A stretch of 64,000 nt of DNA from NCBI RefSeq assembly GCF_008042075.1, contig NZ_RDBN01000005.1, positions 899,035 through 963,034 on the forward strand, in the 5' to 3' direction. The notes below the pieces were generated by a model. It did not search any database, had not been told where the DNA came from, and saw only the letters and a program-made list of their open reading frames with translations. Shown here piece after piece: positions 4,646 through 63,069 of the stretch; the stretch's first letter is position 1, and every line of letters begins with the position of its first letter. The DNA is from Streptomyces sp. UW30. GTDB lineage: Bacteria; Actinomycetota; Actinomycetes; Streptomycetales; Streptomycetaceae. Both the position numbers and the translations under genes were made by a program.

Positions 4646-6853
<2,208 letters not shown>

Positions 6854-7125
6854 CGGTTGAAGGCCACCCGATCGGCGCATATCAGATGCATACGGGTGGC
6901 TGGGGCGCATTCGGGCAACCGTCGACGACCGCTGCCCGTGGAAGCCTTATGCGGCCTACTGTTGAGATGTGCGCCTGCCGTGCCCAGCTGCGGTTGGGGC
7001 ATCCCCTTGCTCTGGAAGGGCTTTGGAGGGTGAGGGGAAGGGCTTTCCAACGCGGTGCCGTTGAGGGTCGTTGTCGGGCATCGGGCCGCGTGGCGTGGGC
7101 ACCGCCGGCTGTGAGAGGGACGGGA
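6854..7125 (+). other. Leader region between ligA and the RmdB-type gene
   Basis: This 272-bp stretch holds the nested hairpin described at 6863-6900 and then a purine-rich leader with repeated AAGGGCTTT-like runs at 7015-7050. The frame is open upstream of the chosen start, but codon use there is not coding-like. No promoter hexamers could be assigned with confidence. Confidence 0.4.
6863..6900 (+). terminator. Nested hairpin behind ligA
   Basis: GCCACCCG (6863-6870) pairs perfectly with CGGGTGGC (6893-6900), and a second small stem GCAT/ATGC (6877-6889) sits inside the loop. It begins 10 bases after the ligA stop and most likely ends its transcript. Confidence 0.6.
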
Positions 7126-56884: not shown

Positions 56885-56957
56885 CCGGGGGCCGGCGCCC
56901 CCGGACCCCCGCTTCGGCCTAGACGGCCTCGTCCTCAAGCTCCCCCAGACGGGCTGA
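56885..56957. repeat. Dispersed 3'-end repeat, copy 2, with hairpin
   Basis: CCGGGGGC/GCCCCCGG (56885-56904) forms a stem with loop CGGC and can end ilvE transcription. GCTTCGGCC, GGCCTCGTCCTCAA and GACGGGCTGA behind it match the repeat at 36081-36160. The stop codon (56919-56921) and the tail GELEDEAV of the minus-strand permease are made from it. Confidence 0.6.
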
Positions 56958-58364
56958 AAATGCCGCCCCCGGGCTCTGCTGAGACCGAGCCCGGGGCTGC
57001 AGCAGCGCGTACGCCACACCCCCCACCACCCCCGACAGCAGGAAACTGCAGTCCACCCCGCCCGTCAGGCCGAGCAAAGGCCCCTCGTACGACGGCAGGG
57101 AGACGGCGAGCAGGCCGACCGTCGCGCCCAGGGTCCAGGACACGGTCGCCGGGATGTTCCAGCCGGAGCGGTACCAGTAGACGCCGCCCTTCGCGCGGCG
57201 GTTGAAGACCTGGAGGGCGTCCGCGTCGTACACGCCCCGGCACCGCACGAACCCGATCAGGGTGATGACCGCCCACGGTGTGCCGACGGCGGTCAGCAGC
57301 AGCACGAAGGACGTCATCGCGTCCTGTGCGGTCGAGGCGTAGTGGCCGACGAAGACGCAGACCGTGGCGACGACCGCGACCGCGCAGGTCGCCCGGGCGC
57401 GGGAGGCGCGCGGCAGGATGGCGTCGAGGTCGAGGCCCATGGAGTAGAGCATCAGGCCCGCGTTGCCGACCGAACCGGCGGAGGCGGCGAGGAGGAGCGG
57501 CAGCAGGTACCAGGCGGGTGAGGCGTCGACCAGGGGACCGGCGTAGTCGAGGGCGGCCCGTGCCGCGTACGAGGTGAACGTGCCGAACAGCTGCGGGACC
57601 AGCAGCCCCAGGATCAGGCCGAGCCAGGTCGCGTGCAGCACCCGGCGTGAGGAGTGCCGGGCCGGGGAGATGTAGCGGGTGTAGTCGCCGAGCAGGGTGA
57701 TGAAGGCGATCGGTCCCGACAGTCCCGCCGCCACCGTCGCCAGCAGCCACGTGGGCCAGAAGCCGCCCAGCAGATAGCCGCCCGCCTCGGGCAGCGCCTG
57801 CGTCGTGAAGTGCGGGGCGTAGGCGATCACGCCGAGGAGCAGCAGCGCCGTCATGCCGACCGCGAGGATCCGGGACATGGCGAGCAGCACCCGGTAGCCG
57901 TACACCGCGCCCGCGACGGTCGCCGCGGCCAGCAGCCCGTAGACCACGCCGTACGCCACCCCGCTCGCCGGCAGCCCGAACAGCCGGCCCAGTACGCCCA
58001 CCATGACGTCGCCGCCGATCCACACGGTCAGGGCCGTGTAGCCGAGGGCGAGCAGCAGGCCGACCACCGAGCCGACCAGTCGGCCGCGCACCCCGAACTG
58101 GGCTCCCGAGGAGGTGGACAGGTTCGTCGCCGTGCGCAGGGAGATCAGGGCCAGCGGGGCGGTGAGGGCGGTGCCGACCACCGTGCCCACCACGATCGAG
58201 CTCACCGATGCCCACCAGTCCAGGCCGAAGGACGGCGGCAGCCAGCCGAAGACGATCACCCCGAGGCACAGGTTCGACCCGAGCAGGATCGAGACGAGGT
58301 CCCGGGGGCCGCTCGTGCGTTCCTCCTCCGGGATGGTGTCGACTCCGCGCTGTTCCATCGGCAT
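56919..58364 (-). CDS. NCS1-family permease (cytosine/purine/allantoin type)
   Basis: A 481-residue transporter with twelve predicted helices of the nucleobase:cation symporter 1 family. Family marks are SILLGSNLCLGVIVFGWLPP (about 25-44), TNLSTSSGAQFGVRG (about 80-94) and LGDYTRYISP (about 225-234). Members import cytosine, uracil, hydantoin, allantoin or thiamin precursors. It is divergent from the urease-like operon, suggesting uptake of the compound degraded there. ATG 58364 follows GAGGGAG. Its C-terminus is encoded by a dispersed repeat. Confidence 0.88.
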   Translation of the reverse strand: MPMEQRGVDTIPEEERTSGPRDLVSILLGSNLCLGVIVFGWLPPSFGLDWWASVSSIVVGTVVGTALTAPLALISLRTATNLSTSSGAQFGVRGRLVGSVVGLLLALGYTALTVWIGGDVMVGVLGRLFGLPASGVAYGVVYGLLAAATVAGAVYGYRVLLAMSRILAVGMTALLLLGVIAYAPHFTTQALPEAGGYLLGGFWPTWLLATVAAGLSGPIAFITLLGDYTRYISPARHSSRRVLHATWLGLILGLLVPQLFGTFTSYAARAALDYAGPLVDASPAWYLLPLLLAASAGSVGNAGLMLYSMGLDLDAILPRASRARATCAVAVVATVCVFVGHYASTAQDAMTSFVLLLTAVGTPWAVITLIGFVRCRGVYDADALQVFNRRAKGGVYWYRSGWNIPATVSWTLGATVGLLAVSLPSYEGPLLGLTGGVDCSFLLSGVVGGVAYALLQPRARSQQSPGAAFSARLGELEDEAV

Positions 58365-58446
58365 GGGTGGCTCCCTCGGTTTGAGTGACGTTCAATCTGA
58401 AGTCCCCGAGGTTTGCTGTCAACCTTTCGGTTCAGCGAATTTCATG

Positions 58447-58465
58447 TTTAGAGTGATGCTCTAAA
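58447..58465. promoter_or_regulatory. Operator-like palindrome before the urease-like operon
   Basis: TTTAGAG (58447-58453) and CTCTAAA (58459-58465) form a perfect inverted repeat around TGATG, 28 bp before the first start codon. A second inverted repeat AACC/GGTT lies at 58423-58434. The TetR gene at the end of the operon is a candidate reader. Confidence 0.6.
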
Positions 58466-58493: not shown

Positions 58494-59198
58494 GTGAGAC
58501 TGACCCCCACGGAACGTGACCGGCTGCTGCTCTTCGGAGCCGCCGAACTGGCCCGGGCGCGCCGGGCCCGCGGGCTGCGCCTGAACGTCCCGGAGGCGAC
58601 GGCGATCATCGCGGACACGGTGTGCGAGGCCGCCCGGGACGGCGCCCGGCTCGCCGAGGCGATCGAGCGTGCCCGCCGCGTGCTCGGGCCGGACGACGTG
58701 CTGCCGGGTGTGGCGGACATCGTCACCGAGGTCCATGTCGAGGCGGTCTTCGACGACGGCTCGCGCCTCGCGGTCGTCTCCGACCCCATCGGGGGCGGGC
58801 TCGGCCCGCAGGCTCCCGGCGCGCTGTTGCCGGGTCCGGATCACGCCGAGCCGGAGGCGGCGCTGCGGCTGACGGTCACCAACACCGCGACCGTGCCGGT
58901 CTCCGTCACCTCGCACTTCCACTTCTTCGAGGCCAACCCGCGGCTGGACTTCGCGCGCGAGCAGGCCTACGGCATGCGGCTCGCCGTGCCCGCCGGGTCG
59001 TCCGTGCGCTTGGGGCCGGGGGAGAGCATCGAGGTCGGGCTGGTCCCGATCGGCGGCGAGCGGATCGCGATCGGGTTCGCGGGGCTCGTCGACGGGCCGC
59101 TGGACGCGCCCGGCGCCCGCGCGCAGGCTCTGCGCCGGGCCGCCGCATGCGGCTACCTCGGCGTCACGGAAACACCTGATCAGGAGGTCGTGCGATGA
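58494..59198 (+). CDS. Urease-like gamma-beta fusion subunit
   Basis: A 234-residue fusion of UreA (gamma, about 1-100: RLTPTERDRLLLFGAAELAR, LNVPEATAIIADTVCEAARD) and UreB (beta, about 108-205: LRLTVTNTATVPVSVTSHFH, FFEANPRLDFAREQAYGMRL). Fused gamma-beta chains occur in some bacteria and in H. pylori. GTG start with AAGGAGGTG upstream. It overlaps the alpha-subunit gene by four bases. Unlike the plain urease operons, no ureD, E, F or G follows. Confidence 0.88.
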   Translation: MRLTPTERDRLLLFGAAELARARRARGLRLNVPEATAIIADTVCEAARDGARLAEAIERARRVLGPDDVLPGVADIVTEVHVEAVFDDGSRLAVVSDPIGGGLGPQAPGALLPGPDHAEPEAALRLTVTNTATVPVSVTSHFHFFEANPRLDFAREQAYGMRLAVPAGSSVRLGPGESIEVGLVPIGGERIAIGFAGLVDGPLDAPGARAQALRRAAACGYLGVTETPDQEVVR

Positions 59199-60907
59199 GC
59201 CGCCCAGGAGGCCACGCCGCCGAGGCCCGCCGCCTCAGCCCGTACGAGTACGCGTCCACCCACGGCCCGCGCGCCGGCGACCGGATCCGGCTCGGCGACT
59301 CCGGGCTGACGATCCGGGTCGAGTCCGACTCCCAGCGCTACGGCGACGAGTTCCTCGCCGGGTTCGGCAAGACCGCCCGGGACGGCCTGCACCTCAAGGC
59401 CGCCGCCGTCCGGGACACCTGCGACGTCGTCATCAGCAATGTGGTGGTGATCGACGCGGCGCTCGGGATCCGGAAGGTCTCCATCGGGATCCGCGAGGGG
59501 CGGATCTGCTCGATCGGGCGGGCCGGGAACCCCGACACCCTCGACGGGGTCGACGTCGTCGTCGGCACGGGCACCTCGATCGTGTCCGGCGAGGGGCTCA
59601 TCGCCACCGCCGGGGCCGTCGACACCCATGTCCATCTGCTGTCGCCGCGCATCATGGAGGCCTCGCTCGCCTCCGGCGTGACCACGATCATCGGCCAGGA
59701 GTTCGGGCCGGTCTGGGGCGTCGGCGTCAACTCGCCCTGGGCGCTCAAGCACGCCTTCAACGCCTTCGACGCCTGGCCCGTCAACATCGGTTTCCTGGGC
59801 CGGGGTTCGTCCTCGCACGACGCCCCGCTCGTCGAGGCCCTCGCCGAGGGCGGCGCGAGTGGCTTCAAGGTGCACGAGGACATGGGCGCCCACACCCGAG
59901 CGCTGGACACGGCGTTGCGCGTCGCCGAGGAACACGACGTGCAGGTCGCCCTGCACAGCGACGGGCTGAACGAGTGCCTGTCGGTCGAGGACACCCTGCG
60001 CGTCCTGGACGGCCGCACCATCCACGCCTTCCACATAGAGGGCTGCGGCGGCGGTCACGTCCCCAACGTGCTGAAGATGGCCGGGGTCCCGAACGTCATC
60101 GGCTCCTCCACCAACCCCACCCTGCCCTTCGGCCGGGACGCGGTCGCCGAGCACTACGGCATGATCGTCTCCGTCCACGACCTGAAGACCGACCTGCCCG
60201 GCGACGCGGCGATGGCCCGCGACCGCATCCGCGCCGGGACGATGGGCGCCGAGGACGTGCTGCACGACTTGGGCGCCATCGGCATCACCTCGTCGGACGC
60301 GCAGGGCATGGGCCGGGCCGGCGAGACCGTCCGCCGTACGTTCGCCATGGCCGGGAAGATGAAGGCCGAGTTCGGTGCCCCGGACGACGGCCACGACAAC
60401 GAACGCGTCCTGCGCTACATGGCCAAGCTGACCATCAACCCGGCCATCGCGCACGGCCTCGCCCACGAGGTCGGCTCGATCGAGGTCGGCAAGCTGGCGG
60501 ACATCGTGCTCTGGCGCCCGGAGTACTTCGGCGCCAAGCCGCAGCTCGTGCTCAAGTCCGGCTTCCCTGCCTACGGTGTGGTCGGCGACCCGAACGCCGC
60601 CACCGACACCTGCGAACCCCTCGTCCTGGGCCCGCAGTTCGGGGCGTACGGCGCCACCCCCGCCGACATCTCCGTCGCCTTCGTCGCACAGGCCGCCGTC
60701 GACCAGGGCAACGACTCGATGCCGACCCGGCGCCGCAGGGTCGCCGTGCGCGGCACGCGCGGCATCGGGCCGGCCGATCTGCGCCTGAACTCCCGTACCG
60801 GAGCCGTCGACGTCGACCAGCGCACCGGCCTGGTCACCCTCGACGGCGAGCCGCTGCGCTCGGAGCCGGCCGAGTCCGTCTCCCTCAACCGCCTCTACTT
60901 CCTCTAA
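59195..60907 (+). CDS. Urease-like alpha (catalytic) subunit
   Basis: A 570-residue amidohydrolase of the urease alpha family. By comparison with Klebsiella urease, all nickel ligands are kept: His145 and His147 (DTHVH), Lys225 (GFKVHEDMG, the carbamylated lysine), His254, His280 and Asp368 (TSSDAQGMG). The mobile flap is changed: the Cys319 equivalent is Val327, while the neighbouring His320 equivalent remains as His328. Residues between the HxH and the lysine differ much from true ureases. It may be a urease or an enzyme for a substituted urea; see the findings. Confidence 0.88.
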   Translation: MSRPGGHAAEARRLSPYEYASTHGPRAGDRIRLGDSGLTIRVESDSQRYGDEFLAGFGKTARDGLHLKAAAVRDTCDVVISNVVVIDAALGIRKVSIGIREGRICSIGRAGNPDTLDGVDVVVGTGTSIVSGEGLIATAGAVDTHVHLLSPRIMEASLASGVTTIIGQEFGPVWGVGVNSPWALKHAFNAFDAWPVNIGFLGRGSSSHDAPLVEALAEGGASGFKVHEDMGAHTRALDTALRVAEEHDVQVALHSDGLNECLSVEDTLRVLDGRTIHAFHIEGCGGGHVPNVLKMAGVPNVIGSSTNPTLPFGRDAVAEHYGMIVSVHDLKTDLPGDAAMARDRIRAGTMGAEDVLHDLGAIGITSSDAQGMGRAGETVRRTFAMAGKMKAEFGAPDDGHDNERVLRYMAKLTINPAIAHGLAHEVGSIEVGKLADIVLWRPEYFGAKPQLVLKSGFPAYGVVGDPNAATDTCEPLVLGPQFGAYGATPADISVAFVAQAAVDQGNDSMPTRRRRVAVRGTRGIGPADLRLNSRTGAVDVDQRTGLVTLDGEPLRSEPAESVSLNRLYFL

Positions 60908-60916
60908 GGACACCCC

Positions 60917-61966
60917 ATGTCTGCTGCCTCCGACGGCTTCCGCATGCCCGCCGAGTGGACCCCGCACGAGCGCACCTGGATGGCCTGGCCGGGGCCGAAC
61001 GTGACCTTCGAGGACGCCGAGGATCTCATGGCGGCCCGCCTGGCCTGGGCGTCGGTCGCCCATGCCGTGCGACGCTTCGAACCGGTGACGATGGTGTGCG
61101 GCCCGGGACAGTCCGAGGAGGCCCGGACGCTGCTCGGGCCGGGTGTGGAGACCGTCGAACGGGACCTCGACGACGCCTGGATGCGCGACATCGGCCCCAC
61201 CTTCCTGACCGACGGCGCCGGTCGACTCGCCGCTGTCGACTGGACGTTCAACGGCTGGGGTGCGCAGGACTGGGCCAGCTGGGAGCACGACGCGAAGATC
61301 GCCGGTCATGTCTCCGACCTGGCCGGCTCGACAAGGACGTACGCCTCGAAGCTGGTGAACGAGGGCGGGGCGATCCATGTCGACGGCGAGGGGACGGTCC
61401 TGCTCACCGAGACCGTCCAGCTCGGGCCGGAGCGCAACCCGCACTGGACGCGGGAGGAGGTCGAGGCCGAGATCCACGCCATGCTCGGCACCCGCAAGGC
61501 GATCTGGCTGCCCCGCGGCCTCACCGGCGACTACCCGCCCTACGGCTTCGGCACCCTGGGCCATGTCGACATCGTCGCCGCCTTCGCCCGGCCCGGCGTC
61601 GTCGTGGCCCATGTGCAGCCCGACCCGGCGCACCCCGACCACGAGGTGACCAAGGAGATCCTCGGCCTGCTGAAGTCGCAGACGGACGCACGCGGGCGCC
61701 GACTGGAGGTCGTCGAGGTCCCCGCCCCGACCGTCCTGGAGACCGACGGCCACTGGGCCGACTACTCCTACATCAACCACTACCTCTGCAACGGCGGCGT
61801 GGTGCTCTGCGGCTTCGACGACCCGCGCGACGAGATCGCGGCCGGCATCTTCCGACGGCTCTTCCCGGAGCGGACGGTGACGCTCGTCGACGCGCGCACG
61901 CTCTTCGCGGGCGGGGGCGGCATCCACTGCATCACTCAGCAGCAGCCGAGGGGCGTGGTCAGGTAG
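60917..61966 (+). CDS. Agmatine deiminase family protein
   Basis: A 349-residue enzyme of the guanidino-group-modifying family. Agmatine deiminase turns agmatine into N-carbamoylputrescine and ammonia. The catalytic set is present: Asp in DDAWMRDIGPTF (about 91), Glu in NEGGAIH (about 151), His and Asp in GHVD (about 216) and the nucleophile Cys in GGGGIHCITQQQP (about 340). The residue before GHVD is Leu where most have Asp, so the substrate may differ. It begins ten bases behind the urease alpha gene. Confidence 0.87.
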   Translation: MSAASDGFRMPAEWTPHERTWMAWPGPNVTFEDAEDLMAARLAWASVAHAVRRFEPVTMVCGPGQSEEARTLLGPGVETVERDLDDAWMRDIGPTFLTDGAGRLAAVDWTFNGWGAQDWASWEHDAKIAGHVSDLAGSTRTYASKLVNEGGAIHVDGEGTVLLTETVQLGPERNPHWTREEVEAEIHAMLGTRKAIWLPRGLTGDYPPYGFGTLGHVDIVAAFARPGVVVAHVQPDPAHPDHEVTKEILGLLKSQTDARGRRLEVVEVPAPTVLETDGHWADYSYINHYLCNGGVVLCGFDDPRDEIAAGIFRRLFPERTVTLVDARTLFAGGGGIHCITQQQPRGVVR

Positions 61967-61975
61967 AACGTACGG

Positions 61976-62467
61976 GTGAACGTACTGCTCTGCGCCACCT
62001 GCGGAACCCGGCTGACCGAGCCGGTCCGGCGGCTCGACGAGAAGCCCGAGTACCCCGGCTGGGACGGCCTCCCGGGCCCGGACGGCCGACGGCACGGCCC
62101 GCCGAGCGTGCCGCGCGGGACGTACGTCGTCGACCCGCTGCCCTTCGGGGCGCCGTTCGAGCCGATCGGCCCCGACGAGGAGTACGACGGGGAAGTGCCC
62201 GGCGGCAAGTGGAGGTCCGACGAGCGGGGCTTCCTGGTCGCCGCCGGGCCACGCGGCACCTACGTCCTGCACCCGGACGACGTCGTGGACCTCACCCCCC
62301 ATTCCGACAGGTACCGCCTCATCGGCTGCTGCGGTCCGGACGGCTCGGCCGGGGTCAACCACGTCTGTGGCTGCGGGGCCGAGGTGGCCATCGTCGCCGC
62401 CGACTGCTCGAGCGGCTACGAGACCCGGCTCGTCCCGGACGCCGTCCGTGTGGAGGCCGTCGCGTGA
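61976..62467 (+). CDS. Uncharacterised Cys-rich protein
   Basis: A 163-residue protein that I do not recognise. It begins CATCGTRL, a CxxC knuckle, and ends with a second cysteine cluster GCCGPDG...NHVCGCGAEVA...ADCSSGYE, so it may bind zinc. The middle is rich in Pro, Gly and Asp. It starts on GTG ten bases behind the agmatine deiminase gene and overlaps the TetR gene by four bases, so it belongs to the operon. Confidence 0.7.
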   Translation: MNVLLCATCGTRLTEPVRRLDEKPEYPGWDGLPGPDGRRHGPPSVPRGTYVVDPLPFGAPFEPIGPDEEYDGEVPGGKWRSDERGFLVAAGPRGTYVLHPDDVVDLTPHSDRYRLIGCCGPDGSAGVNHVCGCGAEVAIVAADCSSGYETRLVPDAVRVEAVA

Positions 62468-63069
62468 CGCCCGCCCGCCGCCGCACCCCCGCCCCACCCC
62501 GCGAGGACGTCCTCGCCGCGGCCATGGACATGATCGCGGAACTGGGCCTGGAGAAGCTCACCATGGCGGCGCTCGGCCGTGAGGTCGGGATGAGCAGCGG
62601 CCATCTGCTCTACTACTTCCACTCCAAGGACGAACTGCTGCTGCGCACCCTGGAGTGGAGCGAGGGCCGGCTCGGCGCCGAGCGCGGCCGGCTCCTCACC
62701 CGGTCCGCCTCCGCCCGCGAGCGGCTCGACGCGTACGTCGACCTGTACGTCCCCTACGGCCACCGCGACCCGCACTGGACGCTGTGGCTGGAGGTCTGGA
62801 ACCGCTCGCAGAACGCCGACGAGGAAGCCCGCGAACGGCAGGCCGCGATCGAGGGTGCCTGGCACCGCGACCTGGTGGCGCTGGTCGCGGAAGGCGTGTC
62901 GAGGGGGGAGTTCCGTGCGGTCGACCCGGATCGTTTCGCGGCCCGGCTGCGGGCGCTGCTCGACGGCTTCTCGATCCATGTGGCGATCGGGCTGCGCGGC
63001 ACGGACCGAGCGCAAATTCTGCGCCACGTAAGGGAGTTCCTCGACGACAGCCTCCTCGCGGACTCCTGA
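62464..63069 (+). CDS. TetR/AcrR-family transcriptional regulator
   Basis: A 201-residue regulator ending the urease-like operon. Helix-turn-helix at about 15-58 (LAAAMDMIAELGLEKLTMAA, MSSGHLLYYFHSKDELLL). The C-terminal domain (YVPYGHRDPHWTLWLEVWNR) resembles the BetI-like group that senses amines or cholines. GTG start overlaps the stop of the preceding gene. It probably controls the operon and the divergent permease through the TTTAGAG palindrome. Confidence 0.88.
   Translation: MTPARRRTPAPPREDVLAAAMDMIAELGLEKLTMAALGREVGMSSGHLLYYFHSKDELLLRTLEWSEGRLGAERGRLLTRSASARERLDAYVDLYVPYGHRDPHWTLWLEVWNRSQNADEEARERQAAIEGAWHRDLVALVAEGVSRGEFRAVDPDRFAARLRALLDGFSIHVAIGLRGTDRAQILRHVREFLDDSLLADS

Follow-up and report, generated by a model that had tools for sequence, protein, structure and literature searches.

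We analysed a window of 64 kb from Streptomyces sp. UW30 (the whole stretch of DNA under study, C137:899035-963034, within the 9.9 Mb genome G000), in which an operon joins genes for a urease-like enzyme, ureAB and ureC2, to a gene for a guanidino deiminase of the PAD_porph family (PAD). With slightly better than even confidence, we propose from sequence comparison that UreABC2 is a urease-fold amidohydrolase rather than an ordinary urease, most likely acting on the product of the neighbouring deiminase. In the proposed pathway, PAD would convert a guanidino compound to a mono-substituted urea (R-NH-C(=NH)-NH2 + H2O -> R-NH-CO-NH2 + NH3), which UreABC2 would then split (R-NH-CO-NH2 -> R-NH2 + NH3 + CO2) at the carbamylated-lysine two-metal site retained from urease. 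A rebuilt loop in UreC2 would accommodate the R group or bind it, and the enzyme, like Bacillus subtilis urease, would mature without UreD, UreF and UreG; the aminobutyl group of agmatine is one candidate for R, although the deiminase loop would point to a different tail in this lineage. The proposal is built on the parts of the operon, residue conservation, a separate UreC2 clade, linkage, accessory-free genomes and paired palindromes, and in it we infer the activity, order of steps, substrate, metal and regulation of UreABC2 and PAD. An original prediction made from the window had suggested that the urease paralogue splits a substituted urea; this was right in kind, given the deiminase linkage, the rebuilt loop and the accessory-free genomes, but the substrate stays unproven and agmatine is doubtful.

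Sequence and phylogeny of UreC2

The first gene, ureAB (58494..59198, + strand, GTG start), encodes fused urease gamma and beta subunits (PF00547 and PF00699; NF009671, 315 bits, cut-off 243). Its end is overlapped by four bases by the start of ureC2 (59195..60907, + strand), which encodes a urease alpha-like protein (PF00449 and PF01979; NF009686, 747 bits, cut-off 354) and is followed by the PAD gene (60917..61966, + strand; PF04371, 365 bits). All three urease subunit domains (gamma, beta and alpha; PF00547, PF00699 and PF00449) scored over their cut-offs, and UreC2 fell below the urease alpha equivalog (TIGR01792, 636 bits vs a cut-off of 680). Open reading frames (ORFs) and family profiles bore out the gene content originally described, namely a ureAB fusion, a ureC-like gene, a deiminase-family gene, a Cys-rich gene, a TetR gene and a divergent NCS1 permease gene, as well as the statement that ureD, ureF and ureG are not in the window, all three being on contig C123.

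UreC2 is 47% identical to the canonical UreC of the same genome, encoded on another contig, and, judged by its sequence, did not arise as a mere duplicate of that ordinary urease. Residues H145, H147, K225, H227, H254, H280, H328, R344, R346 and D368 were invariant in 20 UreC2 sequences and the canonical UreC (L001), so that the metal ligands (H145, H147, K225, H254, H280 and D368) are kept, together with H227 and H328; the roles of the metal-site and acid-base residues follow Klebsiella numbering. The difference lies in a loop that is rebuilt from residue 167, after the strand 162-167. Here canonical GGGTGPAEGSKATTVTPGPW aligns with GQEFGPVWGVGVNS----PW, a loop four residues shorter, and the canonical pattern GGGTGP...TPGPW is replaced by GQEFGPVWGVGVNS-PW, which holds Q, then E/D/N, and W. 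In addition, UreC2 has EGCGGGH where canonical urease has EGAGGGH. The rebuilt loop was present in every UreC2 row of the alignment, and the GGGxGP loop in all five canonical controls examined. A motif census of 189 partly redundant rows found the lysine and D368 motifs in 189, the loop in 185, the strict HxH in 184 and the strict H328 pattern in 174, the count of EGCGGGH being biased because 96 of the loci were retrieved by that motif. The ratio of non-synonymous to synonymous substitution rates (dN/dS) was 0.08-0.21 in all seven pairs compared, indicating purifying selection on UreC2.

The best matches of the UreC2 structure model were urease alpha chains (Z 44.7-49.3, root mean square deviation (rmsd) 1.9-2.7 over 514-553 residues; top match Z 49.3, rmsd 2.2, 542 residues), with the next families at Z ~24. 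The model had a mean predicted local distance difference test (pLDDT) score of 78.5 and was poor at 172-177, within the new loop; because of this low confidence, we make no claim about the pocket from it.

In a first tree (57 of 62 wanted rows, five being left out for stops or short matches), 50 UreC2 rows were split from seven canonical ureases by a 100/100 branch. Since PMC2492869 grouped the Streptomyces ure(AB)C UreC with the ureases of Bradyrhizobium, P. syringae and Yersinia, a second tree of 40 rows was built; four canonical ureases were added to it, two of them a Hafnia/E. albertii pair, and L254 was dropped for a stop. Again, 29 UreC2 and 11 canonical ureases were 100/100 apart, neither tree including those ureases of Bradyrhizobium and P. 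syringae. By sequence, UreC2 is thus with full support a clade separate from the 11 canonical ureases compared.

Linkage of UreC2 to the deiminase

We surveyed 150 genomes of the genus, counting as UreC2 the matches of at least 78% identity (canonical copies lie near 48%), and found 96 copies in 87 genomes. A PAD match stood on the same strand within 3 kb of 95 of these copies, and within 100 bases in 73 of the 95, while at the 96th (G118, L139) UreC2 and PAD adjoin and are both in broken pieces. In two further genomes (G039 and G042), not counted in the 96, a UreC2 truncated at a contig end adjoins PAD. All 87 UreC2 genomes had a PAD match vs 22 of the 63 others (Fisher p 4e-21, ancestry ignored), and in the genome studied here the only PF04371 match is the window PAD. 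Many relatives carry a UreC2 that is more than 90% identical, and the same gene order is met repeatedly, suggesting that the locus is kept beyond chance.

Nine genus genomes carry a second UreC2 copy, and five of these second copies were read. The downstream PAD has another loop, LLDTETDGHVDG, in four of them (L095, L097, L134 and L135), L096 has a PAD of window type (49% identity or more), and L097 and L135 have a further PAD upstream of ureAB. At the second copy in L097, the frame of one PAD (5293-6951) continues into a phosphoribosyltransferase-like (ComF-like) region.

Outside the genus, loci whose titles name Acidimicrobiaceae, or which belong to one freshwater family, had a window-type PAD upstream of UreAB. 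Another PAD group was found near UreC2 in L160, L166 and L200. The third adjoins UreC2 in records of Kribbella (three), Tetrasphaera (one) and Mycolicibacterium (one), four of these five loci having genes that match PotA and PotD. A fourth linked group (L062, L081, L086 and L230) is weak, as in L081 PAD is on the opposite strand with genes between. In the PAD tree, the UreC2-linked PADs did not form one clade, and the label was weakly more clustered than when shuffled (27 of 500 shuffles as low); because of this weak clustering, we claim several linked PAD groups and no number of origins.

Genomes without maturation genes

This genome has a single UreD, a single UreF and a single UreG over the cut-off, all beside the canonical ureC; ureD, ureF and ureG were not found in the 64-kb window, and UreE was not searched for. 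To this genome we added 29 UreC2 carriers from outside the genus and five genus genomes picked for lacking UreD, giving a sample of 35. Seven of the 29 also have a canonical ureC, and all seven have UreD, UreF and UreG, whereas none of the 22 with UreC2 alone has UreD, UreF or UreG over the cut-off; among them an assembly gap is possible in G429, because its UreG piece sits at a contig end, and in G175 UreG was matched weakly (46 bits vs a cut-off of 204). In three of the genus genomes (G093, G147 and G111) the only full urease alpha is UreC2, and UreD, UreF and an over-cut-off UreG were not found; the other two (G101 and G017) have a canonical ureC and badly broken assemblies. Thus, all three maturation genes were present in eight of the ten genomes with a canonical ureC, and maturation genes over the cut-off in none of the 25 UreC2-only genomes (Fisher p 2e-6, ancestry ignored; UreE not searched). 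As a control, all nine annotated canonical plasmid urease loci had at least one accessory gene near ureC, two further records that carry no annotation not being counted. Since the 25 UreC2-only genomes are without UreD, UreF and over-cut-off UreG, UreC2 seems to be independent of the customary maturation proteins, and to mature without UreD/F/G.

Specificity of the deiminase

Alignment to 1vkp showed that PAD keeps the catalytic residues W88, D91, H216, D218 and C338, with Asn-Gly-Gly in place (residue roles after PMC4487231). Ahead of the catalytic His there is an inserted stretch, and a Gly takes the place of the acidic residue of 1vkp and 6nib. This Gly, at position -4, and a hydrophobic pair after GHVD were found in all 102 window-type PADs (rows from partly redundant loci), whereas 1vkp and 6nib have the acid and DN. 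According to PMC4487231, the tail of the substrate would extend, in the related enzyme of P. gingivalis, to the site of the residue that precedes the catalytic His by three positions. Because PAD misses the AguA cut-off and the loop before the catalytic His is changed, agmatine is a doubtful substrate for the window PAD, but it may be one for PADs of the other groups.

Distribution and other gene contexts

UreC2-like matches at E 1e-170 were found in 57 of 394 class genomes and 10 of 396 phylum genomes. A pattern scan of contigs, written for the HV-type UreC2 and missing the window's own HI-type, gave 99 stretches, of which 96 had UreC2 and three (L218, L223 and L225) were without it and were dropped. 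Where record titles were at hand (80 of the 99), those of the UreC2 holders point to Actinomycetota or give no phylum, and searches with the window's own UreC2 type stayed within Actinomycetota. One pattern match in viral contigs was rejected, as none of the query genes was found in it.

Among the 96 pattern loci, 86 had UreAB and 26 at least one PotABCD-query match (the ATPase alone being weak evidence). Within 4 kb of UreC2, PAD was found in 15 and an Amidohydro_3 gene (at least 36% identical to a query) in 37, never both (p 3.5e-4, ancestry and cut loci ignored); because the loci are at most 8 kb long, the absence of a neighbour is weak evidence. In one branch (L085) the order is Amidohydro_3, ureAB, ureC2, a C45 hydrolase, a flavin adenine dinucleotide (FAD) oxidoreductase and PotABCD-like genes. 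The cluster running from Amidohydro_3 to the PotABCD-like importer was seen in L085, L148, L157, L177, L190, L199 and others, from freshwater-type Actinomycetota, and its gene content suggests that it serves to import and degrade a nitrogen compound.

A plasmid search gave four records at 60-80% identity, and in the three that were read (L141, Embleya sp. NBC_00888; L142, Streptomyces sp. NBC_00637; L143, S. anulatus) UreAB-UreC2 lies in a nonribosomal peptide synthetase (NRPS) cluster. Because the Amidohydro_3 and NRPS contexts exist, UreC2 has more than one partner, PAD being that of this lineage. The plasmid UreAB-UreC2 (65-68%) are accompanied in the NRPS cluster by phosphotransferases, a 2-oxoglutarate-Fe (2OG-Fe) oxygenase-like gene and a sub-threshold B12-binding match, and together with S. 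caelestis L185 they are the first branch of the UreC2 side in the midpoint-rooted tree. On a plasmid of Rubrobacter indicoceani (L248), a canonical urease adjoins agmatinase-family, formamidase and sodium:solute symporter genes, a further case of guanidino and urease genes lying side by side.

Comparison with known systems

The nickel ureases UreABC of Klebsiella, Sporosarcina and Yersinia have the same subunit set, fold, metal ligands and catalytic His and Arg, and are about 45-50% identical to UreC2. They differ in that the UreC2 loop is four residues shorter, that UreC2 has EGCGGGH for EGAGGGH, and that its window is without UreD/F/G and the 25 UreC2-only genomes are without UreD and UreF. 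The urease of B. subtilis, for which we know of no deiminase linkage, is likened to UreABC2 by gene content, not by sequence, and differs from our proposal in that it splits urea, with very low activity. Its likeness is that ureABC stands without accessory genes (PMC8600894). The H. mustelae urease (3qga) has the fold of the UreC2 model (Z 47.3), but it is no closer to UreC2 than other ureases (504 vs up to 542 bits). Its UreA2B2 is not known to need accessory proteins. UreA2B2 of Helicobacter mustelae, an iron urease whose metal is thus other than nickel, resembles UreABC2 in being a second urease (PMC11541087). In the AguA-AguB pathway, as in the one proposed here, the mono-substituted urea made by a PAD_porph deiminase is cleaved by a second enzyme; in our case, however, a urease-fold enzyme adjoins the deiminase, which misses the AguA cut-off.

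In Streptomyces, one published assignment of SCO5526, to nrdA, is in our belief a slip. It stands in PMC4991794. The cluster SCO5525-SCO5526 of S. coelicolor and SAV2715 of S. avermitilis, probably the same as that of the window, consists of ure(AB)C genes only according to PMC2492869, so that the bare ure(AB)C cluster has been in print since 2008. PMC3293853 gives ureABC as SCO5525-5526 and SCO5527 as an agmatine-pathway homologue; the passages on these genes in the two papers draw no deiminase link and give no loop change or substrate idea. The open-licence literature searched yielded neither a urease-agmatine-type deiminase operon nor a ureide-splitting urease, nor the accessory-free UreC2 genomes, nor the altered loop.

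Weighing of the proposal and its alternatives

Several observations weigh against a pathway from PAD to UreABC2. PAD scores below the AguA equivalog (TIGR03380, 308.9 bits vs a cut-off of 381.8), and this, with the changed loop, leaves an agmatine-specific deiminase, as originally assumed, unsupported. AguB, a nitrilase-family amidase, had been described as missing; over the family cut-off (TIGR03381, 410 bits) it was indeed found in none of the 150 genus genomes, but absence of the function is unsupported, as 144 of the 150 have sub-threshold AguB-like nitrilases (best 268 bits), and step 2 could thus happen elsewhere in the cell. For the same reason of 0/150, mutual replacement of UreC2 and AguB offers no contrast. 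Furthermore, 22 genus genomes have PAD and no full UreC2; of the 17 whose loci were read, nine keep a window-type PAD and TetR with no UreABC2 beside them (eight next to ilvE, the ninth cut by the contig), five carry no PAD but other kinds, and in two a contig end truncates UreC2. G120 likewise has a window-type PAD (52%) elsewhere and no full UreC2. Of the 96 pattern loci, 44 have neither PAD nor Amidohydro_3 within 4 kb, and PAD was not found in the three NRPS-cluster plasmid loci. The original prediction had regarded independent occurrence of the two gene pairs as a sign against it, and PAD without UreABC2 and UreABC2 without PAD were both found; all 96 genus copies of UreC2 are beside PAD, one pair being broken, but the pair is not obligatory. 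In S. coelicolor, SCO6414 is among the arginine decarboxylase pathway homologues, and arginine and ArgR had no effect on ureABC (SCO5525-5526) or, except for gabT, on the pathway genes including SCO5527 (PMC3293853).

An unlikely alternative is that UreABC2 is an accessory-free second urease for urea, PAD supplying urea (e.g. from guanidine) or scavenging nitrogen independently. The urease ligands and the equivalents of both catalytic His are kept, B. subtilis with ureABC only shows very low urease activity (PMC8600894), and all nine genomes with the syntenic-type PAD and TetR but no UreC2 have another urease alpha and UreD. However, 84 of the 87 UreC2 genomes have urease alpha matches beyond their UreC2 copies and 82 a UreD match, and UreC2 stays beside PAD despite these other urease alphas; the loop is rebuilt in all aligned UreC2 rows, and a urea transporter was not found among the selected neighbour proteins scanned, whereas six of the nine annotated canonical control loci have one. 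A little less probable still is a general ureide or amide hydrolase, with the substrate coming by lineage from PAD, an Amidohydro_3 enzyme or a peptide assembly line. The exclusive occurrence of Amidohydro_3 and PAD, the branch that adds a C45 hydrolase, an FAD oxidoreductase and PotABCD-like genes, and the plasmid NRPS clusters speak for such an enzyme, which is, however, compatible with the PAD pathway here; the two solved chains closest to the Amidohydro_3 protein are uncharacterised. That UreC2 is an inactive or non-catalytic paralogue, as its divergent active-site loop might suggest, is very improbable, given the invariant catalytic residues, the low dN/dS in all seven pairs and the 25 genomes that have no urease alpha but UreC2, out of a sample of 35 in which five had been picked for lacking UreD.

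A broader extension of the proposed deiminase-UreABC2 pathway, which we put forward tentatively, is that a whole clade of urease-fold enzymes in Actinomycetota matures by itself, without UreD/F/G, has abandoned urea for the substituted ureas that guanidino deiminases or other amidohydrolases make, and has also been recruited to peptide antibiotic clusters. In textbooks, urease stands as the model nickel enzyme, considered urea-specific and reliant on a dedicated maturation machinery. If the extension is true, the urease fold can evolve other substrates and self-assemble its metal site, and there would be a further route, besides AguB and transcarbamylase, to finish the breakdown of guanidino compounds. 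Because NF009686 matches UreC2 over its cut-off, the annotation 'urease subunit alpha' may miscount ureolysis in many Actinomycetota.

Neighbouring genes and putative operators

Upstream of the operon and of the divergent permease gene lie leuB and ilvE, and the order leuB-ilvE-ureAB is also that of S. coelicolor. The NCS1-type permease (56919..58364, - strand; PF02133, 351 bits), a candidate importer, was present in 16 of 18 loci with a window-type PAD (20 genus loci fetched in one set), and was not found in L127, L132 or the second-copy loci L134 and L135. A TetR regulator with a BetI-like C-terminal domain (about 62464..63069, + strand; PF00440 and PF13977) ends the operon, and its gene is close to PAD in most genus loci read. 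At L099, L102, L105, L111, L116, L117, L119 and L120, ilvE, PAD and TetR are kept and ureAB and ureC2 are lacking; L102 also has an NCS1 gene, and six of the nine genomes of this kind (including G056) have two urease alpha matches.

Between permease and ureAB stand two operator-like palindromes, TTTGAGTGACGTTCAAT (58380..58396), proximal to the NCS1 gene, and TTAGAGTGATGCTCTAA (58448..58464), immediately upstream of ureAB. The motif matched twice in the whole 64 kb, vs 0.05 matches expected. Among 47 distinct NCS1-ureAB regions, the ureAB-proximal site was found with at most one mismatch in 45, shuffled copies always having at least two, and a second site apart from it with at most one mismatch in 33, vs one of 940 shuffled copies. 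We infer that the two palindromes are the natural TetR sites, at both of which TetR would act; the pairing would tie the permease to the operon.

The small Cys-rich protein encoded between PAD and TetR (61976..62467, + strand) is an ORF with no Pfam and no NCBIfam match. It is present in the operon and without a family, as had been described, but was rejected as a core part of the system: other loci are mostly without it, and a query scan of L061-L100 and L101-L143 found this optional insert only in L124 and L131.

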